A stretch of 39,811 nucleotides of DNA, from the IMG/VR virus record IMGVR_UViG_3300028025_003046, positions 1 to 39,811 of that record; one strand, given 5' to 3'. Origin of the DNA: a virus. How positions within the stretch are numbered: position 1 is the first letter of the stretch; every line of letters begins with the position of its first letter. Position numbers and translations under genes: made by a program. The notes below the pieces were generated by a model. That model saw nothing but the letters and a program-made list of their open reading frames with translations. It did no database searches and was not told the DNA's origin. This document shows positions 7,770-34,380 of the stretch, one piece after another.

Positions 7770-7954
7770 ACTGGGTAAGTTACTTTCTCGTAGCCATATT
7801 TCTTAACACGAGCAAGGAGCTTCTGGCCTACTTTATTTCGAACTTTGTACTTAATAATTGTAGGACGATCTACAAAGCTAAGATACAAATACTTATCACC
7901 TCGTGGATAAGTGTATGTTGCTGATGGAACACGATATACTAGTGATTTTTTCAT
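7766..7954 (-). CDS. Small basic hypothetical protein, 62 aa
   Basis: It is linked by ATGA overlaps to the deaminase upstream and the exonuclease downstream. The product is strongly basic and rich in tyrosine and lysine (MKKSLVYRVPSATYTYPRG...). It looks like a compact beta protein with a KVRNKVGQKLLARVKKYGY basic helix. Nucleic-acid binding is possible but unproven. Confidence 0.65.
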   Translation of the reverse strand: MKKSLVYRVPSATYTYPRGDKYLYLSFVDRPTIIKYKVRNKVGQKLLARVKKYGYEKVTYPV

Positions 7955-8367
7955 TTTTGTTGTACTCTTATATTACTGTGGATTAGTGTTAAAATACCTG
8001 AATCTGTTTTATATCTGTCTGAGAAAACAACTCTCTCAACACCAGATTGGATAAGTAATAAGGAACAATTGTCACAAGGAGCAGTTGTTACGTATACTGT
8101 TGATCCTCTTAGACTCAAGCCTTCTGCAGCAGCCTTAGATACAAGGTTTGCTTCGGCATGAATCACATAGGATAATGTTTTATTATACTCATTCTCGCAT
8201 TTATTAGGAAAGCCCTTAGGTGTACCATTAAATCCGAAACTGAGTATATTGTTATTTTTTACTGCAATTGCTCCAACTTTACGCTTCTCAGCATAGGACA
8301 TTAAAGCAATTCTTTTCGCTAGATCTAAATAGAGGGAATCATAGCGATCTGTTTTTGCATCCACCAA
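7951..8367 (-). CDS. dCMP deaminase-like protein, 138 aa
   Basis: The zinc-dependent deaminase signature is complete: HAEAN (His70, Glu72) and TTAPCDNC (Cys98, Cys101). The protein therefore should convert dCMP to dUMP, feeding dTTP synthesis. It belongs with NrdA/NrdB in the same transcript. No thymidylate synthase is seen in the window. The frame has no ATG near its 5' end. TTG 8367 (or GTG 8364) is chosen because AGAGGA lies seven bases upstream of the TTG. It overlaps the upstream gene by 43 nt. Confidence 0.88.
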   Translation of the reverse strand: MVDAKTDRYDSLYLDLAKRIALMSYAEKRKVGAIAVKNNNILSFGFNGTPKGFPNKCENEYNKTLSYVIHAEANLVSKAAAEGLSLRGSTVYVTTAPCDNCSLLLIQSGVERVVFSDRYKTDSGILTLIHSNIRVQQK

Positions 8368-13678: not shown

Positions 13679-14182
13679 TTAATAAGGATTGTCATCCTCA
13701 TCATCACCACCGTCAGCATCTGCTACACGAACGATCTCTGTCTCAGTCATTTCAAACTCATCATCAGATGCCTTTGGAATGTATTCATTGAGCTTAGTAA
13801 TTTGAACTGCCATCAACATAGATGCAATTTTACCTTCATCACCATACTCATATTGGAAAATACGAACATTACCTACTGAGCCATTACCAATGCTCATTGG
13901 GTTAATATCATTTAAACCACCATCAATAACCTTTACAGGCTGGTTAACTTCACCATCTTTCTTTTTAGACTTCTTGCGAAGAGTAACAGAATAAAATACT
14001 TTACCGTCATCATCTTCTACAGTCTTAGGCTTTAAGTTGAGTGCGACCCACTCATTCTTAACTTTCTTGTCTCGAGTTCGAATCTGAACTTCCCATGTAG
14101 GTTGCTCTTTATTAAACTTAGCATTTGGTTTCTTGGGATCAAGACGTGGGTAGAATAACTCAACATTTTTTAAAATAGCCAT
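13679..14182 (-). CDS. Single-stranded DNA-binding protein, T7 gp2.5-like, 167 aa
   Basis: The N-terminal two thirds form a basic beta-barrel-type sequence (PRLDPKKPNAKFNKE, WEVQIRTRD, VTLRKKSKKKDG). The C-terminus is a long acidic tail ending ADADGGDDEDDNPY, with a terminal aromatic residue as in gp2.5. In T7 that tail contacts the polymerase and helicase. It is the first gene after RNA polymerase and the new phage promoter, the place of early-replication genes. A TAAGGA lies about 12 bases before the start. Confidence 0.85.
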   Translation of the reverse strand: MAILKNVELFYPRLDPKKPNAKFNKEQPTWEVQIRTRDKKVKNEWVALNLKPKTVEDDDGKVFYSVTLRKKSKKKDGEVNQPVKVIDGGLNDINPMSIGNGSVGNVRIFQYEYGDEGKIASMLMAVQITKLNEYIPKASDDEFEMTETEIVRVADADGGDDEDDNPY

Positions 14183-14222
14183 AGCTTTTTAGTTCCTTAC
14201 TTTTAATTTCCAATTAATAAAA

Positions 14223-14245
14223 GGTATACATCACAAATGCATACC
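14223..14245 (-). other. 5'-leader hairpin of the SSB/replication transcript
   Basis: On the minus strand GGTATGCAT and ATGTATACC pair over nine positions (one G-T) around a TTGTG loop. The stem begins at +8 of the transcript predicted from the promoter at 14252. A TTTTATT tract follows, so it could also attenuate transcription. The same placement is seen at the fibre promoter. Confidence 0.55.
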
Positions 14246-14251
14246 ATTGTG

Positions 14252-14269
14252 CTTTAGCGTACCCTGGTA
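14252..14269 (-). promoter_or_regulatory. Phage RNA polymerase promoter, replication block
   Basis: Minus-strand TACCAGGGTACGCTAAAG spans -17 to +1, with the start predicted at the G at 14252. It matches 17 of 18 positions with the site before the tail-fibre unit. It ends in the CTAAAG core of the T3 promoter and shares C(-7), C(-5), T(-4) and A(-3) with T7. It begins five bases after the RNA polymerase stop, like the first class II promoters of T7. Confidence 0.78.
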
Positions 14270-14273
14270 AAAC

Positions 14274-16442
14274 TTAACAAAAAGCATAATCTGAGTACAT
14301 AATCTGTTTTACATCAAGATTACCCCTTTCAGGAATAAGGTCTTCGCATTGAAGCTCAGACAATAATTTCTCTAAAGGTTTAGCTTTGTAAAACTCTACA
14401 AACTGCTCTCTTACTCTATAAAACAAATCATCCATACGTCCCGGTAAAGTACCGAAAGAATCATGGACAACAGTCATTTCATATGGGGCAGATACTACAG
14501 TCATTGTCAGATGAGCAGCATCGAAACTATGAACGATATTTGGTGCAGCACCTGTCTTTTGGGAATCTTTGTTAATAGTTGCTTCTTCCCAAGTCTGAAG
14601 TTGAATTTTTAATTCTTCTTCTCCGTACTTCAACTTAGTACGTACAATAGATGGCTTACGATATGCCTGAACTACTGGAAAGTTAGTTACAGGTGTAGTC
14701 CATTTTAAGAACACTTCTTTTTCATTAGATCTTTCTGCAAGATTCTGAAACATACGAAGCATTGTAGCTGGTCCTTTAAGTTTCTCATAACAAGTCTCAA
14801 AGACTAAGTCACCTAGCAAAGCACCCCAGAGGTGTTCCTTGTCACGGAGATACTCAGACATATCACGGGTATCATCAATAATTTGTTGACCCATGCCGTA
14901 TGCAGTACCACCGTAACCGAGAGTCATTACATTTCTTTTTACTACTTTACGCTGATCTTTTGGATTATCAATGTTAAGCCAGTAAATAGGAAATAACTTT
15001 TCTCGTATAGCTCGATTTTGATTACGCCATTCTTGAGCAGCAGCATAGGCTAAGGCTTTCTGCTCTGTCTTGTCTGGTGCATCAAAGTAAGCCTTTTGGA
15101 GTTCCTTAGCTTTACTGTAAACTGAATCAAATTGATTACGTTCTTCATCAGTAAGCTTATCTGCCATTTCCTGTAAATGTTGCCATACATATTTTGCAAT
15201 ATACATGTACACATCACCAGGAAGATCTTGAGGAACTAAATTAACTAATGGTGCAATGTCTTCATCTTGAGACATAGCTACTAGGTGCTGAACACCGTTA
15301 TTAGAACCATCGATATACACTGGAAGTGCACACTGATAGTCTTCTAACTTGTTACCTAGCATTAGCCATTCTTTGATTTTTCTTAGTTCATTACAAGCAG
15401 CTAAGAAAGAGAATGGAGCATCAGTATCAATCCAACCTTGATTAATAGTTGGTTTTTCTGCATAAGATAAGAATAAATTAATGTTCTCATCTACGAACTC
15501 AGCCCTCTGCTTTAGCGTCACCTTGTCGTTACCAAAGGAATTGGCAGTATGTACTTTTAGCCAGAACAAGCCATTTTCACCAAGAGGTGTAGCTTGATCT
15601 AGTAATAGTAGACCCTTTGCGTTATCACTAGACTGCTCGTGTAAGAATGCAGTGTTGACATACACTCGACCACGAAAGTCAAAGTTATACACATGGTAGA
15701 AGGCATTATCTAAGTGAGTTAAGGCTAATTGTTCAATAGCCTCCGCCTCAATTAACAATGACTTTCTTTTCTCTTCATCAATCTCAGAGTGTAGTTTAAA
15801 AGGACTAGTCGGATTCTCTTTATGGAGGAAATGCTGATATACTTTGAATACATCTTTATTAATCCGCCATCCAGTAGCCTGTAGCTTATTCAGAATATCA
15901 TACAAGGTCTGCTTGTCATTATTCTTAAATTGAGCTAATGCTGTAGAATGACCTTTCTTAATAATTGGTACACCTAAGTTATTGTAAGCAGAGTCCCAGG
16001 GTGTTGCTTTTTCTCTAAGAGGAAATATATCAACTTTAGTTTGATCTATTAAACTCCAGAGATCTTTAATTGCTTTCCAATCTTTTACTTGAAAGAAATA
16101 AGCTTGATATTTACTTTTCTTGCCATTCTTGTATGTGTATTTCAATCTAAAAGAAAGAACTCCACATTCAATATAAGCAATACAAATAAACCAGCCAACC
16201 TGTGCATCAGAGATAGTATCGTTAGGTAGGTCAAGTGTTTGTCTAACCCTTCTACCAATGGTAGCGATAATGTCTACTAATGTACCTTGTCTCTCAAGTC
16301 CACGTAGTATATGAGGATATGAGATGTCTATTAGTGTCTTTGGATCTACGTCCTTCAAGTAATGTGTGTAAATATTTCTATCTGCACGCAAGGATACTTG
16401 ACGTAGTGTTATATCATTAACTAATTTATCTAGAACAGTCAT
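14274..16442 (-). CDS. Single-subunit DNA-directed RNA polymerase, T7-type, 722 aa
   Basis: The polymerase palm and fingers are clear. DGSNNGVQHLVAM (Asp378) aligns with T7 Asp537, VKRNVMTLGYGGTAYG (Lys502, Tyr510) with Lys631 and Tyr639, APNIVHSFDAAH is conserved, and VVHDSFGTLPGR (Asp661) with Asp812. The region before the conserved IVHS motif holds the specificity-loop equivalent (KPSIVRTKLKY, Arg601 and Lys603). At 722 aa it lacks about 160 residues relative to T7 (883), mostly in the N-terminal promoter/RNA-binding domain. It ends SDYAFC where T7 ends DFAFA. No Shine-Dalgarno is visible; the start is coupled to the upstream 42-aa gene. Confidence 0.97.
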   Translation of the reverse strand: MTVLDKLVNDITLRQVSLRADRNIYTHYLKDVDPKTLIDISYPHILRGLERQGTLVDIIATIGRRVRQTLDLPNDTISDAQVGWFICIAYIECGVLSFRLKYTYKNGKKSKYQAYFFQVKDWKAIKDLWSLIDQTKVDIFPLREKATPWDSAYNNLGVPIIKKGHSTALAQFKNNDKQTLYDILNKLQATGWRINKDVFKVYQHFLHKENPTSPFKLHSEIDEEKRKSLLIEAEAIEQLALTHLDNAFYHVYNFDFRGRVYVNTAFLHEQSSDNAKGLLLLDQATPLGENGLFWLKVHTANSFGNDKVTLKQRAEFVDENINLFLSYAEKPTINQGWIDTDAPFSFLAACNELRKIKEWLMLGNKLEDYQCALPVYIDGSNNGVQHLVAMSQDEDIAPLVNLVPQDLPGDVYMYIAKYVWQHLQEMADKLTDEERNQFDSVYSKAKELQKAYFDAPDKTEQKALAYAAAQEWRNQNRAIREKLFPIYWLNIDNPKDQRKVVKRNVMTLGYGGTAYGMGQQIIDDTRDMSEYLRDKEHLWGALLGDLVFETCYEKLKGPATMLRMFQNLAERSNEKEVFLKWTTPVTNFPVVQAYRKPSIVRTKLKYGEEELKIQLQTWEEATINKDSQKTGAAPNIVHSFDAAHLTMTVVSAPYEMTVVHDSFGTLPGRMDDLFYRVREQFVEFYKAKPLEKLLSELQCEDLIPERGNLDVKQIMYSDYAFC
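15510..15527 (-). promoter_or_regulatory. Possible weaker phage promoter inside the RNA polymerase gene
   Basis: Minus-strand GACAAGGTGACGCTAAAG matches 15 of 18 positions of the two intergenic promoters, including the whole GACGCTAAAG core. It also looks like SP6 (AGGTGAC-CTA-AG). It lies in codons for DKVTLKQR of the polymerase, so the likeness could be chance. If active it would produce an internal message from the 3' half of the gene into SSB. Confidence 0.35.
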
Positions 16443-16571
16443 TTAGGAAAAATTTAAAGATGTTTGATAGTTTTCTTGGTTGTCCTTAGTATTCATAATC
16501 TTTTTATAGAGCCACACAATAAATGTTTCTAGTAAAAGAATTAAAACTTCAAATAGGATTGCTTTTGTCAT
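16443..16571 (-). CDS. Small membrane protein upstream of RNA polymerase, 42 aa
   Basis: ATG 16571 to TAA 16443, ending directly before the polymerase ATG (TAAATG). The product MTKAILFEVLILLLETFIVW continues with a basic LYKKIMNTKD and a polar tail, so it is one transmembrane segment with a cytoplasmic C-terminus. It is too short for routine gene callers. It may serve chiefly to couple translation of the polymerase, which has no ribosome site of its own. Confidence 0.6.
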   Translation of the reverse strand: MTKAILFEVLILLLETFIVWLYKKIMNTKDNQENYQTSLNFS

Positions 16572-16578
16572 TATTATT

Positions 16579-16584
16579 ATTATA
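16579..16584 (-). promoter_or_regulatory. Possible host-type -10 box (TATAAT) before the polymerase unit
   Basis: A perfect TATAAT lies between the terminator at 16605-16636 and the 42-aa gene. No convincing -35 hexamer is visible. A start about seven bases downstream would fall at the ATG of that gene, giving an almost leaderless message. The AT-rich setting means chance occurrence is plausible. Confidence 0.3.
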
Positions 16585-16598
16585 TCCCGTTTTTGATT

Positions 16599-16636
16599 AA
16601 AAAATTCGAAAGAACCCCAAGGCGTTAGCCTCGGGG
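16599..16636 (-). terminator. Intrinsic terminator between early genes and RNA polymerase unit
   Basis: On the minus strand CCCCGAGGC and GCCTTGGGG form a 9-bp stem (one G-T pair) around a TAAC loop, followed by TTCTTTCGAATTTTTT. It begins 11 bases after the stop of the 69-aa membrane gene. The GC-rich arms in AT-rich surroundings make it stand out. The wobble pair fits only minus-strand function. Confidence 0.7.
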
Positions 16637-16646
16637 AACTTTTTAA

Positions 16647-16856
16647 TTAAGATGCGAATTTTGCATCCATTGGTATTTCAGTAGCATCTACTTCGACAAT
16701 ACCATCTTTTCTATCTTGATACCACGTAACAATTTTATTTGCTACAAAGAAAGAAAGACCAACAACCAGAACTTCTTTGGCAACACTCAAGGTAACGATT
16801 GCAGCCAAGAAGCCAAGTAACCAACCAAGAAAATAACCAAGTGATGTTATAGCCAT
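16647..16856 (-). CDS. Small membrane protein, 69 aa
   Basis: ATG 16856 has GGAG nine bases upstream. The first 45 residues (MAITSLGYFLGWLLGFLAAI...) are hydrophobic, probably two helices with a KE at the turn. A polar tail follows (WYQDRKDGIVEVDATEIPM). It is the last gene before the terminator. No family is recognised; roles in superinfection exclusion or host membrane alteration are possible for such early proteins. Confidence 0.7.
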   Translation of the reverse strand: MAITSLGYFLGWLLGFLAAIVTLSVAKEVLVVGLSFFVANKIVTWYQDRKDGIVEVDATEIPMDAKFAS

Positions 16857-16868
16857 TTTAATACTCCA

Positions 16869-17003
16869 TTAGATGAAAGGTTTTGGAAAAGGTCCACTGG
16901 TAAAAACTAACAGTAGATAGAGAATGAGTAGAACAAAGAAGAGTCGACGTGACATCAAAAATGTTATAAACATTATTAATAGGAAAATTGTAAATAAGCT
17001 CAT
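16869..17003 (-). CDS. Small membrane protein, 44 aa
   Basis: ATG 17003 shares its first base with the stop of the 77-aa gene (TAATG) and ends at TAA 16869. The product MSLFTIFLLIMFITFLMSRR is followed by a second hydrophobic run (LFFVLLILYLLLVF) and the tail TSGPFPKPFI. This is a two-helix hairpin with a basic turn. Short membrane proteins with a proline-rich tail are common in phages, but the function is unknown. Confidence 0.62.
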   Translation of the reverse strand: MSLFTIFLLIMFITFLMSRRLFFVLLILYLLLVFTSGPFPKPFI

Positions 17004-17236
17004 TATTTTCTAATGGTATTTACATGACCTACTCGTTTGAATCTTTGATTTACATGTGCCAACGGATTAGCTTTCCAATGATCAAGTTCCTCACCGATTT
17101 TATTAAAGAATTCTAAGCTATGCGGTTCATGACGAACTTTAGCATAGTTAAAAATCTCTTTACTGACTTGGTAGACATAACCTTCCTCATCAGCAATTTT
17201 TACATCAGAATACACAGGTGGACATTTAGTACACAT
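17003..17236 (-). CDS. Small early hypothetical protein, 77 aa
   Basis: ATG 17236 has GGAG seven to eight bases upstream. The product opens MCTKCPPVYSD, with a single CxxC pair that could bind metal with other ligands (two His in the C-terminal half), then an acidic middle and a basic tail (VNQRFKRVGHVNTIRK). It belongs to the cluster of tiny genes downstream of the tail-unit terminator, where host-takeover proteins are usually found. Confidence 0.65.
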   Translation of the reverse strand: MCTKCPPVYSDVKIADEEGYVYQVSKEIFNYAKVRHEPHSLEFFNKIGEELDHWKANPLAHVNQRFKRVGHVNTIRK

Positions 17237-17238
17237 TT

Positions 17239-17493
17239 TTAAACTCCGAGTTTTTTATCTACAAAGACTAAGTCTTCAACCGCTTTGAAAATCCTACGAA
17301 AGTCTTCAGCAGACTCTGTAAGGACAGAAGCTACAGTTTCTCCGGTCATGTATGCTGAGTTAACATCATACAATTTAGGAGACACTACAGCCTGCAAGAA
17401 GTCGTCATATACAGTTACTTCAACAGAGTCGAAGGCATTGTACTGAACAGCTTCTATAGTATAATCACCAGCTTTTAAAGTTAGTCTAGGCAT
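17239..17493 (-). CDS. Small early hypothetical protein, 84 aa
   Basis: It is separated by two bases from each neighbour. The product (MPRLTLKAGDYTIEAVQYNAF...) starts as a beta-rich domain and ends in a helix (ESAEDFRRIFKAVEDLVFVDKK). It is acidic, and no motif is recognised. It is part of the early cluster. Confidence 0.65.
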   Translation of the reverse strand: MPRLTLKAGDYTIEAVQYNAFDSVEVTVYDDFLQAVVSPKLYDVNSAYMTGETVASVLTESAEDFRRIFKAVEDLVFVDKKLGV

Positions 17494-17495
17494 AA

Positions 17496-17789
17496 TTAAT
17501 TCTCAAATACTTGATCGTAAATTGTACTGAATTCAATAATAGAGCCATCAAGTTGAACTTCATTGCACATTCTCTCAATTAAGTCTTTAGAGTAACTTGT
17601 AGCATAAATTGCTGGTATACCCTTAGTGTCATTTGAGAAAATATAAGTGAGGCCAAACTCTTCTAATGATTCGATTACTTCTTGTGCTGTAACTCCAAAG
17701 TTATCCCCATACAGAGGATTCAACAGTAAGTACCTAGGCATAGACTTTCCTTTATCAAGTTCTTTGATTCGATTTGAGTTACTGTTCAT
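17496..17789 (-). CDS. Small early hypothetical protein, 97 aa
   Basis: ATG 17789 overlaps the stop of the 39-aa gene (ATGA). A second in-frame ATG 16 codons later (MPRYLLLNPLYGD) follows GGAAAGTCT and may be the true start, giving 81 aa. The protein looks alpha/beta (QEVIESLEEFGLTYIFSND, YSKDLIERMCNEV). It resembles small inhibitors in size, but no family is recognised. Confidence 0.65.
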   Translation of the reverse strand: MNSNSNRIKELDKGKSMPRYLLLNPLYGDNFGVTAQEVIESLEEFGLTYIFSNDTKGIPAIYATSYSKDLIERMCNEVQLDGSIIEFSTIYDQVFEN

Positions 17790-17905
17790 GCTATTACAAC
17801 CTCTACTAGTTCTGGAAGATATGCTTCAAGATCTTTTAGATTAGTTGTTTTAGTAATCAAGTAACCACTTTTCTTAGAATACACGTAGTACATTACTTCA
17901 GTCAT
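17786..17905 (-). CDS. Tiny early protein, 39 aa
   Basis: ATG 17905 is chosen because GAAGGA lies six to seven bases upstream; ATG 17911 is too close to that site. The product MTEVMYYVYSKKSGYLITKT continues to PELVEVVIA. Ribosome site, ATGA junction with the next gene and a sensible residue mix support it, though at this size the call is tentative. Confidence 0.5.
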   Translation of the reverse strand: MTEVMYYVYSKKSGYLITKTTNLKDLEAYLPELVEVVIA

Positions 17906-17922
17906 TTTCATTCCTTCGTTGA

Positions 17923-18021
17923 TTAGAACAGAGCGTCAAGACCGTGCAGTACCAAAGCTAACAAACCCATTGAGACTGCAACTACTGTAACAGCATCCAT
18001 AAGCTTTTCATTTACTTTCAT
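17923..18021 (-). CDS. Tiny membrane peptide, 32 aa, first gene of the early cluster
   Basis: ATG 18021 has AAGGA eight bases upstream. The product MKVNEKLMDAVTVVAVSMGL, then LALVLHGLDALF, has a short basic head and one hydrophobic helix. It is the first gene after the tail-unit terminator and the candidate -10 box. The good ribosome site is the main support. Confidence 0.5.
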   Translation of the reverse strand: MKVNEKLMDAVTVVAVSMGLLALVLHGLDALF

Positions 18022-18050
18022 GATTTTCCTTTTTGAGTTAATAAGATTAG

Positions 18051-18066
18051 AGTCCTATCTTTTAAG
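18051..18066. promoter_or_regulatory. Short inverted repeat near the early promoter
   Basis: TATCTT-TT-AAGATA is a near-palindrome with 6-bp arms, placed between the candidate -10 box and the first early gene. It could be an operator, but arms this short and AT-rich arise easily by chance. Confidence 0.25.
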
Positions 18067-18076
18067 ATATTCTTCT

Positions 18077-18082
18077 ATTATA
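18077..18082 (-). promoter_or_regulatory. Possible host-type -10 box (TATAAT) for the early cluster
   Basis: A perfect TATAAT lies 29 bases downstream of the tail-unit terminator and 56 bases upstream of the first early gene. A host promoter is expected here because early genes must be read before the phage polymerase exists. No clear -35 box is visible; the upstream stretch is A/T-rich. Confidence 0.4.
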
Positions 18083-18110
18083 GATACGTCATTTTTCTCA
18101 CTTTTTTGAT

Positions 18111-18140
18111 AAAAAAGGCCACCCTTTTTACGGGGTGACC
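18111..18140 (-). terminator. Intrinsic terminator ending the tail-fibre unit
   Basis: On the minus strand GGTCACCC and GGGTGGCC pair (8 bp, one T-G) around an A-rich loop and run directly into TTTTTT. It starts seven bases after the stop of the 77-aa gene. It is the strongest terminator in the window and marks the boundary between late fibre genes and early genes. Confidence 0.85.
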
Positions 18141-18147
18141 ATTAAGT

Positions 18148-18381
18148 TTAAGCAGGTACTGGTTGAGTCTCTGCTGGTTGCTCTTCTGACAAAGCTTTCT
18201 TAAGCATCTCAAAGAACGTGTTACGACCTACTTGGAGTTGATCCAAGTTAAATTTAGAGGAGTCGATTTTGCGATCTAAGTCTGCAACATGGTTTAACAA
18301 CATTTGCTGTTGCTGACTCATGTCCTCATACTTGTATTCTACGCCATCGATATTTACAGGGGTCTTTTCATTTTTTCCCAT
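18148..18381 (-). CDS. Small tail-region protein (DUF6447-like), 77 aa
   Basis: The sequence VNIDGVEYKYEDMSQQQQML, then LDRKIDSSKFNLDQLQVGR, is a short beta hairpin followed by two long helices likely to form a coiled coil, with an acidic/proline-rich tail. Small proteins of this layout (DUF6447 in name, from memory) occur beside fibre genes of aquatic phages. AAGGA precedes the ATG. It is the last gene before the terminator of the fibre unit. Confidence 0.68.
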   Translation of the reverse strand: MGKNEKTPVNIDGVEYKYEDMSQQQQMLLNHVADLDRKIDSSKFNLDQLQVGRNTFFEMLKKALSEEQPAETQPVPA

Positions 18382-18401
18382 TTTAATTTCCTTTTTAAAT
18401 T

Positions 18402-18424
18402 GTCACTAAATGTCAGGTAGTGAC
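18402..18424. other. Inverted repeat GTCACTA...TAGTGAC
   Basis: Perfect 7-bp arms separated by nine bases lie in the 74-nt gap before the 77-aa gene. No T-tract follows on the minus strand, so it is more likely an RNA-processing site or stability hairpin than a terminator. Confidence 0.45.
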
Positions 18425-18455
18425 TTCCTGTTATATTTGTTTGATTATCTTTTAG

Positions 18456-19076
18456 TTAGAGGTAACCGTTAGATAGTGCAATAGTGATACCAGTTCGTGT
18501 AGTTAATACAGGTGAGCCTGAAGAGCTTGAAGATATTTCTACAGTATATGTAGCACTAATTTGGGTAGCTGAGGCTTGGTAAATAGTGATTTCTCTACCT
18601 GGGGAATCTAATTGAACCCAACCAGTAGAAGCAGTAGAAGCAGCAGCTGCACCAAAACCGTCTGTTGCTGTTCGGGTAAACCGAATCCAGTAGTTTGAGC
18701 CTATCCCAGAAGTAGTTGGATTCCCCCAAGTTTCCCCAAGAGGTTGATATCCAAAATCATACCCGTATTGATCCATAGTTCCATTGGTATTCCACCGAAT
18801 ACCTGCGCCAGCTGGTTCTCCGAAGCCATAAAACACATCATCAATAAAGTAACCATTACCAAAGCCGCTTGAGTACGCTACTGTAAATGCAGGACTTGGT
18901 CCTTTACCATAAAAATCACTAAATGATATTACTCCAGAACTAAAAGTACCAGAGCTACCACCAGCTGTATACCAAGTGGTACCTCTATAAGCGCCTATAT
19001 TTTGACCCCGTCCATCAAAGACAGAGTTAATTTGAGACATGGATATTGATCCACTGCCTTGAAGGTATCCAGCCAT
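18456..19076 (-). CDS. Putative minor tail/virion protein, 206 aa
   Basis: The N-terminus (SISMSQINSVFDGRGQNIGAYRG) and the nearby SGVISFSDFYGK form a pattern seen at the start of many phage tail-associated proteins. The rest is Gly/Ser/Tyr/Trp-rich and beta-like (GFGNGYFIDDVFYGFGEP...), lacking charged helices. A decoration or receptor-contact role fits its site behind two fibre genes. No catalytic motif is visible. Confidence 0.65.
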   Translation of the reverse strand: MAGYLQGSGSISMSQINSVFDGRGQNIGAYRGTTWYTAGGSSGTFSSGVISFSDFYGKGPSPAFTVAYSSGFGNGYFIDDVFYGFGEPAGAGIRWNTNGTMDQYGYDFGYQPLGETWGNPTTSGIGSNYWIRFTRTATDGFGAAAASTASTGWVQLDSPGREITIYQASATQISATYTVEISSSSSGSPVLTTRTGITIALSNGYL

Positions 19077-19084
19077 GATTAAGC

Positions 19085-19444
19085 TTATGCCTCAGTCGGT
19101 GTTGGCTCAGGAGTCTCAACCACAGGTGCCCAAGGCATTGGGGTAGATACTAAAGATGCCCTAGCAATTTCCTTTTCTAACACATATTGAATATGTGCTT
19201 TGATATTGGGAATGCGTTCATCTGTAGCTTCAACCCAAGCCATAACAGCAGCTTCTGTCAGACTAGTCAATGGTACAAAGTTGGAAGAATCAGGATCACC
19301 AAGATTTGTTGTCTGTGGTAACTCAAACTTTTGACCAGCCTCTTCACCAGTTAAAGTCCATTCAACTTGTTTTACTGTGTTTTCTAATCCGTTTACTGTA
19401 GCAGTACGGATACCGTTAATTTTAATTGTAAATGTGGTTGCCAT
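19085..19444 (-). CDS. Fibre-associated accessory protein B, 119 aa (paralogue of 23970-24335)
   Basis: The protein shares its plan and its C-terminus with the 121-aa protein downstream of the giant fibre. Both have a VTSLKT/INGIRT-like start, a strand reading VEWTLTGEE or TYWTKTGVD, an FVPLTSLTEAAVMAWVEA / FIPFSELTEEIILNWIKA core and a tail MPWAPxVETPxxTP. This is a widespread phage family of unknown role near tail fibres (DUF7936-like, from memory). It starts two bases after the 1497-aa fibre stop. Confidence 0.75.
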   Translation of the reverse strand: MATTFTIKINGIRTATVNGLENTVKQVEWTLTGEEAGQKFELPQTTNLGDPDSSNFVPLTSLTEAAVMAWVEATDERIPNIKAHIQYVLEKEIARASLVSTPMPWAPVVETPEPTPTEA

Positions 19445-19445
19445 A

Positions 19446-22400
19446 TTATTCCTTAATTAATTTTTCAATGAGTGCTTCTAGTTGAGCTACTCTAGTTTTC
19501 AAATCTACGATTTCGTTATCTTGTTCTTTAATGGCCTCAACCAATAAAGGAGTTAAACGTTCATAGTCAATTGTTAGATAGTTACTATTAATTGGTGCAT
19601 CTGTAACAATTTCAGGTAAAACGGATTGCACAGCCTGAGCAGAAACCCCAACTTCTCTTTTAGGTTTATAGCCAAAACTTTGTGCTAACTCATTAGCTTC
19701 GTAATAAAAGCCTTCAAGCTGGCAAACTTTGTGTTTAGCATTCTCAATTTTACCTAAGTACTTTTTAAGACGCATGTCTGAGTAATATGCGGTAATATTT
19801 CCAGCAACCCTTAATGAAGTTCCTGTATCATTAGGCGCTAGATAATAGCCTGTATCAGTATTATGGTAGTATATTGGTGAGAAACTATTTGAAGAAGCCC
19901 TTATAGTAGATGCTCTACATTCAGCTACAGATACACCGCTACCAGTCGCAGAGGACCATACATCATTTAATATAGATGTCCTTGCATAATGCGAAGTACC
20001 ACCGTAGTCATAACCATTTGCATATAAACTAATACTAGTATCTAGGCCGCTAACCTGAACAAAATATCTTCCGCCACCTCGCAAATAAACAAATTCTAGA
20101 CTAGCTTGATTGTTTTGTGATATGCCTCCGCAAGGATTAACATTACTCCATCCGTAAGTAAATGCGTTAATCTGCCTTTGTTGAGTTGTTGTACCCCAAC
20201 CACCACCGTTATTTTCCCAGTCCATTACTAAAGTAAAACCAGCAGGATGCGTAGACCAAGACGGAGTGGAACTTGAGTTTAACCCAACATTAATTTTAAT
20301 ACGGGTTGTTTGGGAAGCGGACAGAGATATACCTACTGGGTAATAGGTATTTTGGTCATATCCTGTAAGATCAATAGTTGCTGAACAACCTATTGAATAA
20401 CCTGCAACATTTAATAGCTTTAAACTAGAAGTACTTGCTGGGTCAACATAGTAATTAGTATCATTACTATCATAAAAAAGAGGAGCTCGCATGGATGAGC
20501 CGTCAGCAAGTGTATAATCACCGCCTACAACACGTAATCTCCAGTTACCATTATTATTTAAAAATCCAATACTATTTCCAGTATCATAATAAACATAGCC
20601 TCTGACGGTTCCATTATGAGTATCCCTAAACCTAATACCTTGACCGCCATTATTTCCGCCCATGTTCCAATATGCACTATCATCAGAATACCAATGTTGA
20701 CCTGTAGCTTGGTTATACATTCCATTACCACTGCTATTACTACGGAACCAATTATTAGCATAGATGTTACCAAATGTCCAAGTAGACCCAGAGCCAGGCG
20801 AGTAATTTGTATAATTAGCTGCGTCTAGAACAATGGCATCTGTACCTCCACCGTATGAATTCTTATATACATGTAATTCCCCGCTTGCCCAACGAAACTG
20901 CCAGCCAGAATTGTTATTGTGGAAACCGCTAGTATTACCATCACTACCTATCATCAATACGGTATTACCGTTACTTGAATCAAACTCAATACCATGCCAA
21001 CCGTTTCTTGACCCCGCTGAACGCCAACCACCGTACGTTCCATTATTTGGGTAAAAGTGAGCTCCGTTCTGCGGGCTGTATAGGCCAGAATAACCACCAA
21101 ACTCAATCCATTCATTTGAGTAGTTGCGACCCGAAGTAGTCCAGCCAGGAGAAATCGTCAAGCGGCCAGACATGGTTCCACCGCTCAAAGGTACAGCGTA
21201 GGAGCTGTAGTTACTACTATGTAACACCTCTCTCCACGCACTCCAATCTGAGCCGGTTTGACGACGGAACCACATACCATCCTGATCCCACGGAAGTGCG
21301 ATTTGTGAGTATCTTCCACTCGAACCAATTTCGATTGATCGATAATTAGCACGACCATTTGGCGTACTGGTCATTGACCCGTCATACTGATAAAGTCCGG
21401 GGGCTTTAATAGCATCAAAATTACTAACGCTGTAACCAGCAGTTAATTGGCTTATATTAGGCGCATAGCTTGTGTAGTTACTAGTTGTTAAACCATTGGT
21501 CACTGAACCAGCATTACCCGTAATATTAATACCCCATGTACCACTAGCATTGCCGCCTGTTAATGTTGGGCTGTAGCTGTTGTAGTTTTGATTTGTTAAA
21601 ACCTTGTTCCATGTCTGCCAGGCATTTCCATTCCACCCGCCACGGAAAATTAAATCATTACCTGCGTGACTAATAAAAATCTGCGCCTGTGACGAACTCA
21701 TTGCCGCAAAATTTAGCAATGTACCATAGGTATACGAGGCAGCAGTAGGGCCATTAGTCGTACTAGAGAAATTTGATGGATCAACCTGAATAATACTATT
21801 CTGATATCCATTGCCAAGACTGTTCCAGTCATTGCTGCTTGACGGATAACCCAAGGCTCGAATAATACTATTAAAGCCAGTGTAATTACCTGCATGAAGA
21901 ACCTGATTTCCACCTTGGGTCAATGAACCATTAAAGACATCTAGACTAGTACCTGGACCATCACGACCTATGTATACAGTACTTGCAACGCTTGAATAAA
22001 TATTTAATCCACCGCTCCACCCATGAAATGTCCAGTTAGGTGTAGTGCCATCAGCCCGAACAAAGCTAAGTTGGTTTCCATTAGCAGACAAGGTTACCTG
22101 TCCAGTGACTGTACCTCCGCTTAATGGCAGGGCGTAGGAACTGTAGTTACCTGCATGTAATAATTGATTACCAGTAATTTGAACATTAGAGGTAGAAGCA
22201 AAATTAACTGTGCTATCTGAACTAAAATCAGAAATATTGGTTGGAGTTGGAGCAGAGTTAATGAAAGTAGTGCCAGCGCTTGGTGGGTTTGATGTAGTAG
22301 TTGTGCGATTTGTCGTAACACGAACATCAACACCAGCATAGTGACGAACATCAACAAAAACAGAAATGTAATAATTATCGCCACTGACTTGAACAGGTGA

Positions 22401-23939
22401 GCTAATACGACATTGGAAGTTGTTGTCACCGCTGCCGCTGTATTCGATTAACTGGATGCTCGAAGTTTGGGTATAGCCATAGCTAATAACGTATTTCTTC
22501 TTAAGACCCCGAGAATAGTACTTTTCATACAGTTCAACTTCAAATGGCCCGCTACCGCCATTCCAGTCGTTAAAATCAATGGCTATGCGGGCTATTTCAA
22601 AAGTTCGTGCTTGACTGCCCGAAGCCCCTAGGTCATTCCAAAAGAATTGTTTTATAGTACTATTCGGACCAGAAAAAGAAGTACTATCATATCCATCTAA
22701 AAGATTAGAGTCTGCTGCTTTTCCACTCGTAGTTAAATACCCTGACAAAGCAGAACTAGTAATATACCCACTAGGATTACTAGAGTTATAAGGAATATAC
22801 CCCAATGCAGTAGTAACCATTCCAGAAGTAATACCCGAAATATAACCGCTAGGGTTAGTGGAGTTATATGGAGTAAATCCAAGAGCAGTAGTTACATTTG
22901 AACTAGTAATGCCTGTAATATACCCATTAGGATTAGTAGCATTATAGGGAGTAAACCCTAAAGCCCCCGTAACATCTGCAGAGCCAATAGTAACTGCACC
23001 AGTACGGCTATTAACACTAGTAACTCCACCAGTAACTGTAATAACACCAGTGGTGGAATCATATGAACCAGATCCAGTAACAGAGATTGCTGAACGAGCT
23101 TGAGCTACTGTAATATAGTTGTTTGGGTTAGTAGCATTATAAGGTGTAAACCCTAATGCTGTTGTAACCATTCCAGACGTAATGCCGCTAATATATCCAC
23201 TTGGATTAGTAGCATTATAAGGCGTAAACCCTAATGCACCAGTAACATCTGCTGAACTCAGAGTAATAGCACCAGTGCGAGTATTAAAGCTAGTTACACC
23301 ACCAACAATGTTAATAACACCAGTGGTTGAGTTGTATGAACCAGCACCAGTAACGCTAATAGATGCCCTAGCACGAGCATCCGTGAAATAAAGATTTGTT
23401 CCCTCTACAATACCTGAAGTACTGGGGGTTGTATAACTAAACACACCTGTTGCAGAGTTATAGCTTAGGTCACCAGAGGCACTAACCGCACCTCTAGCTA
23501 AAGTATCCGTATATTGTGTAATAGTAGTGCTAATAGCACCAGTAGTAGAATTATAACTAATCCCAGTACTGGCACTTAGAGCACCTCTAGCACGAGCATC
23601 TGTATAGTAAAGGTTAGTACCCTCACTAATTCCTGATGTCGAAGGAGTTGTATAGCTGAAAACACCAGTTGCTGAATTGTAACTGAGGCTTCCAGAAGCA
23701 CTTACAGATGCCCGAGCCCGAGCATCCGTAAAGTACAAGTTTGTATTCTCTACAATATTTGCAGTTGTAGGTTTATTTAGTAAGTCTGCATAGGAGCCAC
23801 TTGTAGCTACGGCATGCAAGCCTAGGGCGGCCTTAGCATCAGCTTGTGAGCCTCCGCCAGTACCGCCATAAGCAATGCCTAGTACACCACTAGAATCTGT
23901 GCCTTCTGCTAACTTAGATAAATTACGTGGTATACTCAT
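19446..23939 (-). CDS. Tail fibre with C-terminal S74 self-cleaving chaperone, 1497 aa
   Basis: The N-terminus (MSIPRNLSKLAEG, GIAYGGTGGGSQADAKAALG) is a fibre attachment type. It is followed by repeats of NLYFTDARAR, SYNSATGVFSYTTPSTSGI and GALGFTPYN, then Gly/Asn/Ser-rich beta modules (HAGNY, ALPLSGGTVTG, FYDSNDTNYYVDP). Residues 1387-1497 are an intramolecular chaperone of the S74 peptidase type. SDMRLKK supplies the Ser1387/Lys1392 dyad, LPEIV and LLVEAIKEQ follow, and a terminal coiled coil closes the domain. Cleavage is expected just before Ser1387, releasing the chaperone after trimerisation. It should bind host surface glycans or proteins. Confidence 0.92.
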   Translation of the reverse strand: MSIPRNLSKLAEGTDSSGVLGIAYGGTGGGSQADAKAALGLHAVATSGSYADLLNKPTTANIVENTNLYFTDARARASVSASGSLSYNSATGVFSYTTPSTSGISEGTNLYYTDARARGALSASTGISYNSTTGAISTTITQYTDTLARGAVSASGDLSYNSATGVFSYTTPSTSGIVEGTNLYFTDARARASISVTGAGSYNSTTGVINIVGGVTSFNTRTGAITLSSADVTGALGFTPYNATNPSGYISGITSGMVTTALGFTPYNATNPNNYITVAQARSAISVTGSGSYDSTTGVITVTGGVTSVNSRTGAVTIGSADVTGALGFTPYNATNPNGYITGITSSNVTTALGFTPYNSTNPSGYISGITSGMVTTALGYIPYNSSNPSGYITSSALSGYLTTSGKAADSNLLDGYDSTSFSGPNSTIKQFFWNDLGASGSQARTFEIARIAIDFNDWNGGSGPFEVELYEKYYSRGLKKKYVISYGYTQTSSIQLIEYSGSGDNNFQCRISSPVQVSGDNYYISVFVDVRHYAGVDVRVTTNRTTTTSNPPSAGTTFINSAPTPTNISDFSSDSTVNFASTSNVQITGNQLLHAGNYSSYALPLSGGTVTGQVTLSANGNQLSFVRADGTTPNWTFHGWSGGLNIYSSVASTVYIGRDGPGTSLDVFNGSLTQGGNQVLHAGNYTGFNSIIRALGYPSSSNDWNSLGNGYQNSIIQVDPSNFSSTTNGPTAASYTYGTLLNFAAMSSSQAQIFISHAGNDLIFRGGWNGNAWQTWNKVLTNQNYNSYSPTLTGGNASGTWGINITGNAGSVTNGLTTSNYTSYAPNISQLTAGYSVSNFDAIKAPGLYQYDGSMTSTPNGRANYRSIEIGSSGRYSQIALPWDQDGMWFRRQTGSDWSAWREVLHSSNYSSYAVPLSGGTMSGRLTISPGWTTSGRNYSNEWIEFGGYSGLYSPQNGAHFYPNNGTYGGWRSAGSRNGWHGIEFDSSNGNTVLMIGSDGNTSGFHNNNSGWQFRWASGELHVYKNSYGGGTDAIVLDAANYTNYSPGSGSTWTFGNIYANNWFRSNSSGNGMYNQATGQHWYSDDSAYWNMGGNNGGQGIRFRDTHNGTVRGYVYYDTGNSIGFLNNNGNWRLRVVGGDYTLADGSSMRAPLFYDSNDTNYYVDPASTSSLKLLNVAGYSIGCSATIDLTGYDQNTYYPVGISLSASQTTRIKINVGLNSSSTPSWSTHPAGFTLVMDWENNGGGWGTTTQQRQINAFTYGWSNVNPCGGISQNNQASLEFVYLRGGGRYFVQVSGLDTSISLYANGYDYGGTSHYARTSILNDVWSSATGSGVSVAECRASTIRASSNSFSPIYYHNTDTGYYLAPNDTGTSLRVAGNITAYYSDMRLKKYLGKIENAKHKVCQLEGFYYEANELAQSFGYKPKREVGVSAQAVQSVLPEIVTDAPINSNYLTIDYERLTPLLVEAIKEQDNEIVDLKTRVAQLEALIEKLIKE

Positions 23940-24366: not shown

Positions 24367-27300
24367 TTAGCGGTTTGCTAACAAGGATTTGACTAGTGAT
24401 TTTAACTCATCTAGTTCTAATTGTTGTTGATTTAGTTTAGACTTTAGATCTACGACTTCTTGGTTTTGTTCCTTTAAGGCTTCAACCAGCAACGCTGAAA
24501 AACCACGATCTCGTAATGAAAGATATCCATCATCACCTTTACGAACCATTGCTGGAAGGATTTCCTGAACTTCATCGGCAATAAAACCAATATCTTCAGA
24601 TAGTCCTACATATTCATGCTCTCTAGAATCTTCTTTCCAAGTAAATGTGCAACCTTGAAGTTGTAGTACTTTATTTAGAGCGCCTGTTATCGGTTGGATA
24701 TTTTCCTTTAACCTACGATCAGATGGTGAACCATATGCTGTAATGTTTCCACGAGCAATTAGATTTCCAGAATGATCTAAATTTAACATTATTAGATTTT
24801 GTGTGCCACTCCAAAATGTTAAATCATCTGTAGAGTTTATACCTGTATAACCAAGTGCCCAGTTTCCAGGACCAGACGCACCACTTCGATTCCAACGAAT
24901 ACCACCCCATGTTCCAGCAGTGGGTACATTAATTCGGATACCTTCACCCCAAGACTCACTTCGTGCGGTTAATTCAATATTGCCGTTAACAATCATTGAC
25001 TTACCTGCGGAAGATGGGTCTAAGTAAAAACCAGTGCTGTTGCTGTCGTAAATAATACTCGAATACAACGCACCACCGCCTTGATTGGCATCAAACAATG
25101 GAACTAATCGATTTGCACCATATAAATCTATGCCGCCATAGAAGTTGCCATCTGTGTAAACATCGATATAACCACTAGTGGAACTAAAACCAAAACGGCT
25201 GTTGCCGCCAGTAAATTGATATCCGGGATAACCACCCGTACCTGCCCAAAGTCCGGTGTCAAACATATATGCGTCACTACCGCCAAACTGTAATCCGTTT
25301 GCGCGGACGACATACAAACGAGATACGCTATTTGGATCGCAATAATAGGCAGTGTCGTTGCTGTCGTAAAAGATTGGTGCTCGGCTGCTTGTTCTAGATT
25401 GGGAATTGCCGCTTTTGTCAATCCACATATCATTATTGTTCCACGCGCCAATAGTAGTTCCGTTAGCTCCGTCCAAATTGATTGAGCCAGCAGATGTACT
25501 TTGTAACGTACCGCTTTGCCATGCAGTTGAAAATACATGGATGGTTTGGTTATTGGTGCCAGCTTGATAGCAGCGGCCAACTACAGCGTAGTCTCCTGCA
25601 CCGCCACCATAGTTAATAAATAAACCAGTGTTAGCCCCACTGTTACCAATGGTCACATTTCCTGCGGCATTCATTGAAGTGCCGGTACTGCTTGGGTCTA
25701 AATAATAGGCAGTGTTGTTGCTATCGTAGAAGATTGGTGCTCTTGAAGAACCACTAGCAAACACATTACCACTAGTATCGATTCCACAAACACTAGCACT
25801 AACAGCCTCAGAGTAAAAATGAAAATCTGCCGAGCCAACTATTACGTTAGCTGTTCGTTTACCAACATACCAGCTATTACCAGAACCACCATTATAACGC
25901 ACCATAGCTTCGTAGCCGTTGCCGGGGTTGATAAACAAGTACTTGTGCGAAGATCCCGTAATAGTTAAATCGAAAAGGTTTGATGTGCTACGTGGGTCTG
26001 TATAGTATCCAGTATCATTACTGTCGTAGAAAATTGGTGCGCGAAAACTCCCCAATGCTTCTACATATCCGTTGTAAGTTCTTTGTTGCCAAGCGTCTGC
26101 ATAGCGAATCTCAAAGCGATCCGAGTACCCTAGTAATGAAGTTGTAGGCGTTCCTGATGTGCCTGAAGCGCTGAACGCAATAACAGAAGCACCATTTGGC
26201 GCATTAAACAAGCGAATGTTTTCGTTATAATTGCCAGAGTTTGTGCCGTTATTGATCCAAACAGAACCGTTGCTAAAGGTGCCTCGGGGTAGGTTTACGT
26301 TTCCAACATGGTCAATCGACATTGAAGTCTTTGAGCCTGTTGCAAACGAATCGGTCGTACCAAAATACATCTTGGTGCCATAAGAACCAGATGACTGAAC
26401 GTAAATGCCCGCTTGTGCGTTAGTTCCTGACCAACCCCACGTAATACCTTGCGCATTATCAGTAGAACTAGACCCAGAAAAAGCAATGCCATACGTTGCT
26501 AAACCGGGCGTTGTAGTATTAATCCCCGCTACATGACTAGATTGAATTCCAGTTGATGACGAGGTAGAAACAGAAGTAGAAGAACCGCCAGCATTACCAG
26601 TGATATTGATACCCCAAGTGCCTGAAGCATTACCTCCCGTTAAACTAGGAGCATAGGAGTTGTAATTACCATCATGTAAAATAGTTCTCCAAGATTGATT
26701 AGTACCATTTACTTTACGCCTAAAGGATAAAATATCTGATCCAAAATCTAATGCAATAGTTCCTGAATAATAAGTTTCAGCATCTCCATGAGACATACGT
26801 AATGCGTAATGCCAATTGCTATTTGGATTAATGTCAGGGCGGTCATAAATTTGCCAATATTGAAGTGCACTACCTTTTGAACTTGTATCGCTGCTCAATT
26901 GCAACGAGCTACTAGCATTACCTGAGACGCTAATACCCCAAGTACCCGAAGCACCGCCACCTGTTAGTGTAGGTGCATAAGAATTATAGTTACTTGCATG
27001 AAGGATTGCATTGCCTCCAGCAGTCGGAGTGTTTCTAAAGTTAGCAATACCAGTTGCAGCACTTATTGAAAGTTCATTTTGACCAGAGCTGTAGTTGTAT
27101 AACCCAAAAGCATTAGAACTATTATAAATTTCCCATTTATTTACACCACTATGACGTAGAAAGATTCCGGCTGTTGGTCCTGATGTAGCATCAATAATTA
27201 ATTGATTATCATTACCTGTTATAGTAACCGGCCCTGCAACTGTACCACCGCTAAGGGGCAATGCGTAAGAGCTGTAATTACTAGCATGAAGTACTTGGTT

Positions 27301-30300
27301 TCCAGCTTGCGTTAAAGCACCAGCAAAATTAGCACTTCCATTAGCAAGAGAAATCCAAGCTTGTAGCGCACTAGTACCCCCTCCAATAAAACCAAGAGAG
27401 TTTGCTGGCAAACCGCTTACGGCTGAATCAATTTGTCTATGATAAATACCCCAGTTACTACCTGTGTCTGCGGAATCTAAATAAATCCAAGCATCTCGGT
27501 CACCGAGTGGACTATATAAATACACATTAGAGGCTGGATTTACCGTTGTGTATGTGTTTAAAACTAAACTGTTTACGCCCCGAATCCGAGTAGCAGTCAA
27601 ATCACCACTCATCGTACCGCCACTTAAAGGCAAAGCGTAAGAGTTGTAATTCCCAGCATGAAGGATGTTGTTATTATTAATAAAAGCAAATGAGCCATCA
27701 GCAGCGATACGTGTTGACAAACTGCCATCAGCCTTACGCAACAATAATTCACCAACATTCGTAGAAAACCAAATACCTGAATAATTTTCGTATCCAGAAG
27801 TTCTTGAGTATACACCCCAGGAGCTAGAATCCGTAGTAGTAAGAACAGGGCCAGTTAATGTACCACCAGATAATGGTAAATAGGAGCTTAACGCAGAACT
27901 TGTAATATACCCACTTGGATTAGTAGCATTATAAGGTGTAAACCCTAAAGCTGTTGTTACATTAGAGCTAGTAATCTCACCTCTAATTGTAGCAGAACTC
28001 TTGTTTTCTACACTACCTAGACCAACATCTGAGTTGTTTAAAGTTACAACGCCTGTCTTACCCGCAACTGAATCTACAGCACCACTAGTAATATAAATGT
28101 AGGTAGTTCCAGACCAACGATAAGTTTTGTTAGTGTCTAACGCTACATAAATCTTTCCAGTAGTTCCTGCTCCGGGAAATGAAGCTAAGTTAGTGTACTC
28201 AAGTACATCATCGACATAGCTAGGCAATTGACTTGCAGGTACTAAACCTGATCCATCAAGACTAGCGTAGCCATTGGCATTACCTTTGTTAGCAACATTT
28301 TCAGGACTATACCCTAATGCTGTTGTTACATTGCCAGAAGTAATTCCAGAAATGTAGCCATTTGGGTTAGTACTATTATAAGGTGTAAAGCCAAGAGCAC
28401 CAGTAACATCGCCTGAAGTTAAACTAATTGCACCTGTACGAGTATTAAAACTTGTCACTCCTCCAACAATATTAATTACCCCAGTACCAGAATCATAAGA
28501 TCCTGCACCTGTAACCGAAATTGCAGAACGAGCACCAGCAGTAGTAATATAGCTGGATGGGTTAGTAGCAGGGTATGCACCAAGATTAGTTAGGGCACCA
28601 CTTGCTGTAGTAGCTCCTGTACCCCCATTAATAATTGGTAGAGCACCTGTTACATTTCCAACATCCACTAAAGACCAAGAAGTTTCTGTACCATTTGTAT
28701 TTAAAAACTTATTTGCATTAGTTGTTTGAGAAGGCAATAAACTAGCCTTTACTGCAGCAGATACGGTTCTAACATTATCCACATGTAAATACTGTGGATG
28801 ATCGTCATCACTGAGACCTGATAAGTTAGAATGATCATTTACAGCAGCAGCAGAGACACCTGCAGATTGTACAGCCCTAAGATCGTAGATTTCTCTTAAT
28901 CTTGCATTTGGAGTATTATCGTATCCATCATTTCCCTGGAAAATAAGTTTATATAAAGGTCTAAACTCAAGAGAGGGGAAGTTAGTTAATATCAGTTCTT
29001 CAAACTTTGCAGATTGAGCATTAGATAATGTAGTTAGGTTTGATTGGCTGATAATAGCCATAACAGGATGGTTAAGGTTATTAGTCGCAATAATCCAAGA
29101 ACAGGTATAATCATTATTAAGTACATCTGCTGTTAGCCACACTCCTCCAGAATAATAGTTATACTGAGGTCTGGCAGTACCCTGTTTTAAAGGATAGTCT
29201 GTCGCAGTATCTAAAATCCATTCGGAAGCACCACTAAGACGCAATACAGGAATCTTTGCAGGAAACAATAGATTTTGTGTCCAGGTATTTTGAGTAGGTG
29301 TTGCTGTTGAAACAACATTAATTTCTAAGTCTTCATCAAAGAATGTACCACTCTCAATACTAATCTGTGCATCTGAATTAAGGTCACCTGTACCAGATAG
29401 AGTATAACCATTTGCTGCAAATCCACTAGCAATAACTGCTCCACGAGTTCTATGTAAGTACTCATGGGTAGCCCAATCTAGGGTTGTACCATGTCTTTCA
29501 TCAGCAAAGTATGTAGCTTGTCCAGTTGTTGCATTCCAATAAACATAAGATACTGGAGTATCAGTGTCCCAAGTAAAGTAGGTAGTTTTATAAGATAATA
29601 CACCTAAGCTACTATAGTAAATATAATATAAGGCTGTTGTATTAGGTAAAGTTATTGTTTGTGCAGTTGAAACTACATTCTTAACACCTTTACACCATAC
29701 TTCAAAAGAACCACCTACTGGGCTAATTGTAAATACTCTAGTAGTTGAATTAAATGAAATACTAGAATCATTTTTATTAACAAAACCAATTGGCTCTTTA
29801 GTCGCTGAAACAATATTGTCAATTAGAGCACCTTGAGCAGCAGTAGCATAAGCCGTGCTGTCTGTTGTAGCCGCAGTACCCAATCCAAGATTAGTTCTTG
29901 CGCCAGCAGCTGTAGTGGCTCCTGTACCTCCCGATTCAATATCAACAGTACCAATAATGTTTTCAGCAAGTACTTGACCAACACCATAAACATTATAAAC
30001 CAAGGCATCAACTGCCGCTCCTGCACTGGCAGGTACAGTTAGTGTAAATGAAGTTTCATTGGTTGCTGTGTAGTCTGAAGTTTTTAACAATACACCGTTA
30101 ACATAAACTTGAATTGAACCTAGTGGATAAGTTACATTAAATGTAGTCTGTCCAGCAGTAGCTGTAAAGCTTGTACGTGTATAGGCACTTGTAGGTAAAT
30201 TAACTGTTGCCCAATAAGCTGCTGTACCATCAGTTCTCAGGAACTTATCAGCATGAGTAGCTTGTGGGGGCAAAGCATCTACAGTAGCCCAAGAAGCATT

Positions 30301-34350: not shown

Positions 34351-34356
34351 ATCTCT

Positions 34357-34374
34357 CTTTAGCGTCCCCTGGTA
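34357..34374 (-). promoter_or_regulatory. Phage RNA polymerase promoter, tail-fibre unit
   Basis: Minus-strand TACCAGGGGACGCTAAAG covers -17 to +1, with initiation predicted as GAGAGA. The initial sequence and CTAAAG core are those of the T3 promoter, and only position -9 differs from the copy after the RNA polymerase gene. It lies in the 59-nt gap behind the chaperone-like gene, the longest gap of the tail region, and controls the fibre genes down to the terminator at 18111. Confidence 0.8.
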
Positions 34375-34380
34375 AATTGA

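Follow-up and report, generated by a model that had tools for sequence, protein, structure and literature searches.

In the class I early region of T7, small genes lie ahead of gene 1, and the promoters belong to a class unlike those of the phage RNA polymerase (RNAP). The host takeover module of SPO1 (PMC6873191) comprises 26 genes in the terminal region of the genome; these are dense, mostly small early genes, many of them with unknown targets. For the roseophage DSS3_VP1, PMC12697855 reports a biochemically characterised dTMP phosphatase that is assigned to PF12917. Here we analyse a cluster of eight very small genes directly ahead of a single-subunit phage RNAP gene in an uncultivated virus (IMG/VR record IMGVR_UViG_3300028025_003046; the whole stretch of 39,811 bases is referred to as the window). 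Cluster and RNAP gene together probably constitute the immediate-early operon of this phage, because a candidate early promoter element, P_E, is found only ahead of this region and a phage-RNAP-type promoter-like element, P_L, never before the cluster. New here are this early/late motif split, an exchange slot next to the RNAP gene and the leader-peptide arrangement. The two motif classes provide the first directly testable transcription map for an uncultivated, apparently aquatic phage group near the deoxyuridine (dU) roseophages. In addition, the analysis names eight uncharacterised families of tiny proteins, including four of membrane peptides, in a position that phages often use for host-takeover functions.

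Nearly all genes of the window are located on the minus strand, as are the window features given below. In the direction of transcription, from position 18381 downwards, a 77-aa gene (phrog_21153, function unknown) is followed by a terminator, the genes A32-B41-C97-D84-E77-F44-G69, a second terminator, H42, the RNAP gene (14274–16442, phrog_414) and replication genes. A previous reading of the letters alone (the sequence-only reading) had counted at least seven genes of fewer than 100 codons in 1.7 kb, between two terminators. We found eight, which tile 16443–18021 as open reading frames (ORFs) of 32, 41, 97, 84, 77, 44, 69 and 42 aa and whose order is conserved in relatives. Both hairpins are present as intrinsic terminators: one closes the upstream, tail-side unit (18117–18140; 8 pairs, then a T-run; fold z -3.2), the other is found at 16615–16636 (9 pairs, 7 of them GC; fold z -5.6). 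Since the latter sits between G69 and H42, seven genes are enclosed by the terminators, not eight. The packing is tight, with B overlapped by C and E by F, and D and E each starting two bases after their predecessor. Over 100% of the query, the RNAP shares 50% identity with its counterparts in the roseophages DSS3_VP1 and DSS3_PM1 (Naomviridae); closer relatives, with up to 98% identity, are encoded on uncultivated IMG/VR contigs. The gene order is of the Naomviridae type, with RNAP and replication genes that are related to those of DSS3_VP1 and similarly arranged (order beyond the RNAP was compared by annotation only). A megablast search of 14000–20000 yielded no named-phage match.

P_E (AAAGTGAG-N13-CTATAAT, 18076–18104) was first recognised as a block preserved between diverged contigs and is present as a single copy in the window. 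In a scan of a viral contig collection, its 23-base core gave 30 exact matches in 23 stretches from 22 contigs. The bases AAAGT ahead of the core, which were not part of the search pattern, were found at 31/31 sites including that of the window. Of the 22 contigs, 21 have an RNAP gene downstream of P_E, and the remaining one ends 167 nt beyond the site; three P_E contigs have an RNAP just 37–39% identical to that of the window. Relative records with P_E contain one to three copies each, upstream of RNAP wherever the record includes it. The distance to RNAP is 1.58–2.66 kb in 18 of 24 loci; five of the other six begin at or downstream of the expected position, and L017 has a weaker copy (27/35 positions). 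The 75-kb genome of DSS3_VP1 contains the bipartite motif at two positions only, 35792 and 36239, both heading the gene block that leads to RNAP. With one mismatch allowed per box, ten shuffles of this genome gave four matches in total and ten shuffles of an 80-kb relative (G001) none. At the same stringency, no match was found in the stretches searched of the distant records L016, L017, L023, L024, L029, L031, L032, L034–L036 and L100; in the more distant L025 and L026 the outer boxes are kept and the middle differs. In a sigma-70 scan, promoter-like sites were no commoner than in shuffles (21 vs 24.9). In G001, genes for a heme oxygenase (PF01126) and a ferredoxin-dependent bilin reductase (PF05996) are located directly upstream of P_E (locus L042:9939–11142); PMC11480375 describes HemO/PcyX cassettes in aquatic phages.

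P_L (ACCAGGGGACGCTAAAG), which resembles T3-type promoters, is found just after RNAP and before other modules. Two sites with at least 19/25 matching positions are present in the window: TTTACCAGGGTACGCTAAAGCACAA (20/25; 14247–14271) directly after RNAP and TTTACCAGGGGACGCTAAAGAGAGA (25/25; 34352–34376) ahead of the tail-fibre-side genes. At this threshold each of three near-complete relatives (G001, G002 and G003) has five copies. These sites follow RNAP and precede genes for cell-wall hydrolase, packaging, tail and tail fibre. A match of 15–17/17 to the P_L core lies within 1.4 kb 3' of RNAP in 24/24 loci, and 5' of RNAP the best core match in these loci reaches at most 14/17 wherever it is measurable. 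No P_L site precedes the cluster in G001–G003 or the window, and the best match inside the window cluster is 15/25. The DSS3_VP1 stretch searched contained no P_L-like site (best 18/25, on the other strand), which may be expected if the VP1 RNAP reads another sequence. We also considered P_E as a phage-RNAP promoter and dropped this idea, as P_E and P_L share no evident consensus and the middle of P_E varies in distant relatives. The literature searched contained no published description of these promoters.

The small proteins were compared by tblastn with 37 RNAP-bearing records (35 viral contigs and two named phages). Absence from relatives would have spoken against the small genes in the sequence-only reading; we found orthologues in up to 15 of these records. 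A, C, D and E are present in the same order in 15/37 records, B41 in 10/37 (with a distant relative at the margin of detection in L012) and F44-G69-H42 in 6/37. L075, outside this set, contains clear relatives of G and H and is the seventh record for both; its F-like hydrophobic peptide shows no significant similarity to F44 (87/500 shuffles as good). E77 also has a partial match in L008 and a weak one in L030, and its relatives extend to phages with 63–64% RNAP identity (L028, L030). Records without matches are either distant (RNAP 28–68% identical) or begin within or after the region. D84 and G69 gave no match in named phages (tblastn, E <= 10). Pooled ratios of non-synonymous to synonymous differences (pN/pS) were 0.44 for A, 0.50 for B, 0.26 for C, 0.18 for D, 0.26 for E, 0.32 for F, 0.36 for G and 0.45 for H, compared with 0.19 for the SSB-like gene next to them. 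In many pairs the synonymous sites are almost saturated, and the highest values (B, also H and A), which come from very short genes, carry the least weight as evidence. Because same-order orthologues recur in related records, the small ORFs are not chance frames: all eight genes are real, conserved and under purifying selection.

A32 (17923–18021) is a single-pass membrane peptide with a conserved C-terminus, LHGLDAL. B41 (17786–17911), a small soluble protein, and C97 (17496–17789) probably comprise 39 and 81 aa, respectively (C at 17496–17741), because relatives start there and Shine-Dalgarno-like bases are found at those starts in the window. Of the soluble proteins, D84 (17239–17493) is the most conserved; it belongs to no known family. 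E77 (17003–17236) is also soluble; its residues Cys2 and Cys5 are near-invariant. F44 (16869–17003), the start of which overlaps the E77 stop, is a strongly hydrophobic membrane peptide. The N-terminal two thirds of G69 (16647–16856) are hydrophobic (a hairpin or two segments), and H42 (16443–16571) is a short membrane leader peptide whose stop codon TAA is located immediately 5' of the RNAP ATG. The description of these products as almost wholly hydrophobic is correct for A32 and F44, whereas G69 and H42 have hydrophilic C-terminal tails.

That none of the products resembles a known inhibitor was borne out in Pfam, PHROGs, NCBIfam, PADLOC and PDB-sequence searches. The eight proteins gave no Pfam or PHROGs match at E <= 0.001, where very short proteins limit the power, and no NCBIfam or PADLOC family match that we regard as real. 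No homologues of T7 early proteins (such as gp0.3 or gp0.7) were found among them in PHROGs and Pfam, and C, D and E had no real PDB-sequence match. Matches of A32 to a PADLOC 2TM effector (E 0.03) and of D84 to 7mcd, an AI-designed barrel (E 9e-4 in a PDB profile search), were taken as chance. The AlphaFold model of D84 is not reliable (predicted local distance difference test, pLDDT, 50.2). For C97 a ferredoxin-like α/β fold is predicted with moderate confidence (pLDDT 78.6; Foldseek best E 0.015; VIA best Z 6.4 with a root-mean-square deviation of 2.6 for 69 aligned residues in a comparison with PII-like/acylphosphatase folds). This fold names no function, because it is too common and the searches gave only common ferredoxin-like neighbours. 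A C97 profile yielded 86 pattern stretches in genome contigs, none of them confirmed. Relatives of C97 at 48–50% are found at L100:5019–5270 and L099:3233–3481; no RNAP-sized ORF follows in the stretch listed.

The segment from the E77 stop to the RNAP start (16432–17003; 570 bp with F44, G69, the terminator and H42) is exchanged between close relatives with nearly unchanged flanks. Window and L015 share 95.5% nucleotide identity over 18460–17003 and 95.6% over 16432–14271, and nothing is alignable between. The F-G-H block of the window is common to L005 and L021 (straight alignments, 84% and 81%). L015 has unrelated small membrane proteins in the slot, and here L015 and L020 show three other hydrophobic ORFs. 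In a further type (type II; L004, L006, L007, L009, L010, L011 and L013), the slot contains a 76-aa two-segment protein and/or a 29–32-aa leader peptide; ORFs were taken with ATG starts only, and the 76-aa frame was listed for L004, L006 and L009 only. The slot types are of old origin, as L012 encodes a relative of the type II protein and L017 one of the 51-aa protein of L015; each match beat 500/500 shuffles. Since relatives that are near-identical on both flanks carry different peptides, these natural allele swaps make the function of the slot peptides testable.

The swapping would fit an exclusion role for the membrane peptides. Our best guess for F44, G69 and H42, and a speculative one, is a role in exclusion or anti-defence at the inner membrane. 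The special case in which they are early superinfection-exclusion (immunity) proteins is likewise conceivable rather than probable: it is favoured by the early position and by the exchange, among close relatives, of non-homologous proteins in three slot types, whereas PHROGs, Pfam, NCBIfam and PADLOC gave no match to an exclusion family, and anti-defence predicts the same pattern. As a further tentative proposal, the segment may be a dedicated slot in which whole, unrelated membrane-peptide cassettes are swapped and RNAP output is tied to them via the terminator and the coupled leader, making it an exclusion or anti-defence module within the host-to-phage transcription switch. If true, a swappable early membrane module would be built into this switch.

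The RNAP gene has no Shine-Dalgarno-like bases of its own and its start abuts the H42 stop, which suggests that its translation is coupled to that of H42. Short membrane peptides right before RNAP are also found in L012, L028 and L030 and are like that of L009 (500, 500 and 498 of 500 shuffles beaten); the similarity between H42 and the type II leader is marginal (12/500 shuffles as good). In L015, a leader-like frame before RNAP (about 7915–8000) apparently has no ATG; its translation may begin at an unusual codon. Where the window has a plain hairpin ahead of the leader, the terminator-like element of type II relatives is consistent with an H-type pseudoknot, in which stem 1 (ACTCCC/GGGAGT) is followed by a stem 2 that covaries and by a T-run. 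The pseudoknot is single in L004, L006–L011 and L013 and tandem in L012:3295–3385, L028:2650–2742 and L030:1818–1908. A structure scan gave 13 matches, all at the pre-leader position, and none in shuffles; both sides have changed in 6/12 pairs. Rfam had no match for the pseudoknot in the loci tested or for the whole window; a permissive search of 16400–18400 produced one sub-threshold match (17.3 bits; gathering score 88), which we ascribe to chance. The same layout is found at L128:1020–1075, in an apparently unrelated phage contig with no RNAP match in the stretch examined; this copy has no T-run and precedes a ribosome-binding-site-like stretch. Given L128, the pseudoknot may be a wider RNA motif.

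On a rival reading the cluster is transcribed late, by read-through from the tail unit or by the phage RNAP, and has no takeover role. In its favour, the genes share one strand and come after the tail-fibre genes, and P_L units are long. We consider this reading unlikely, as the terminator at 18140–18117 intervenes, P_L sites are lacking both within and ahead of the cluster, and 18127–18036, the block around P_E, is 96.8% identical to L005 amid DNA that does not align on either side. The sequence-only reading is supported in part; its proposal that this position marks host-takeover functions gains real backing: P_E lies only ahead of the region, P_L is missing there, and the corresponding VP1 interval holds a PF12917 match. 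This match, to an HD hydrolase family, is the only one in VP1 (40244–40420, in DSS3VP1_00050, between P_E and RNAP; 22.5 bits, below the curated cut-off), and we infer that DSS3VP1_00050 is the characterised dTMP phosphatase. By analogy with VP1, a P_E-to-RNAP interval may hold an enzyme of host-nucleotide takeover.

Several observations weigh against an immediate-early takeover operon. P_E has a perfect TATAAT and no sigma-70 -35 consensus (read by eye; it is absent from the list of the sigma-70 scan), and within the coding sequence of RNAP (15510–15526) there is an unexplained P_L-core match of 15/17 positions. Membrane-type proteins are weakly enriched among the small genes of the window (4/8 in the cluster vs 5/18 overall, p 0.09); the enrichment is stronger in G001 (5/8 vs 11/50, p 0.009). 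No homologues of A–H were detectable in the DSS3_VP1 stretch searched. PF12917 was found in 0/8 uncultivated relatives of the window group (some of them fragments; the window record was outside this search), so that the functional precedent of VP1 is positional and not homologous.

F44 and G69, together with A32, are of holin-like size, and membrane-type peptides occur in the compared slot types, as would suit a holin/antiholin pair in a lysis cassette. This role is very unlikely, because endolysin, spanins and holin are located elsewhere in the three near-complete relatives: in G001 a GH19 endolysin (phrog_181, E 6e-76), an o-spanin (LysC), an Rz-like i-spanin and a phrog_3427 holin (E 7e-6) are found together beside the terminase, and orthologues are present in G002 and G003. 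A P_L site precedes the cell-wall hydrolase there, whereas the cluster is in the P_E zone, not adjacent to endolysin or spanin genes in G001–G003 (the window does not reach that part of the genome). None of A–H matched a holin family in Pfam, PHROGs or NCBIfam. That C, D or E is a uracil-DNA-glycosylase inhibitor required for dU-DNA, as RNAP kinship to the dU phages VP1 and PM1 and a dCMP-deaminase-type gene in the window might suggest, was dropped as highly improbable, given the lack of the PF12917 dTMP phosphatase in the relatives searched and of any such inhibitor entry in the PDB-sequence searches of C, D and E.

For the immediate-early operon we propose the following course of events, in which promoter activity, timing, attenuation, coupling and every molecular target are inferred. 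After DNA entry the host RNAP would start at P_E, just downstream of the terminator that would insulate it from tail-gene transcription, and its transcript would cover A32-B41-C97-D84-E77-F44-G69. Termination at 16636–16615 would limit continuation into H42 and RNAP (attenuation), and RNAP would be translated by coupling to the membrane leader H42. The soluble C, D and E would act on their host targets ahead of phage RNAP synthesis. In the next step the phage RNAP would fire from the P_L sites that follow its own gene and precede the other modules. The slot peptides F44, G69 and H42 may be under host- or rival-driven turnover.

Elsewhere in the window, two very large tail proteins of 3006 and 1497 aa (24367–33387 and 19446–23939) both end C-terminally in an S74 chaperone-of-endosialidase domain. 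A 148-aa ORF (6650–7096) overlapping the exonuclease gene matches homing-endonuclease PHROGs and one 'NAD synthetase' PHROG.

Compared with the T7 early region, the locus likewise has small same-strand genes directly 5' of a single-subunit RNAP gene and a distinct promoter class, here defined by sequence motifs, located only ahead of the block. Unlike in T7, no T7 early-gene homologue was detected, a terminator separates the cluster from RNAP, and a membrane leader peptide abuts RNAP. With the SPO1 module it has the dense cluster of small genes in common, whereas no shared families were found; we know of no link between that module and a single-subunit RNAP. The interval from tape measure gene to RNAP in DSS3_VP1 and DSS3_PM1 differs in that A–H have no detectable homologues there; its 16 annotated genes include those for the PF12917 protein and for a protein with a cell wall hydrolase domain. 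Its layout is nevertheless that of the window: a P_E motif at the start, genes of unknown function, and RNAP at the end.

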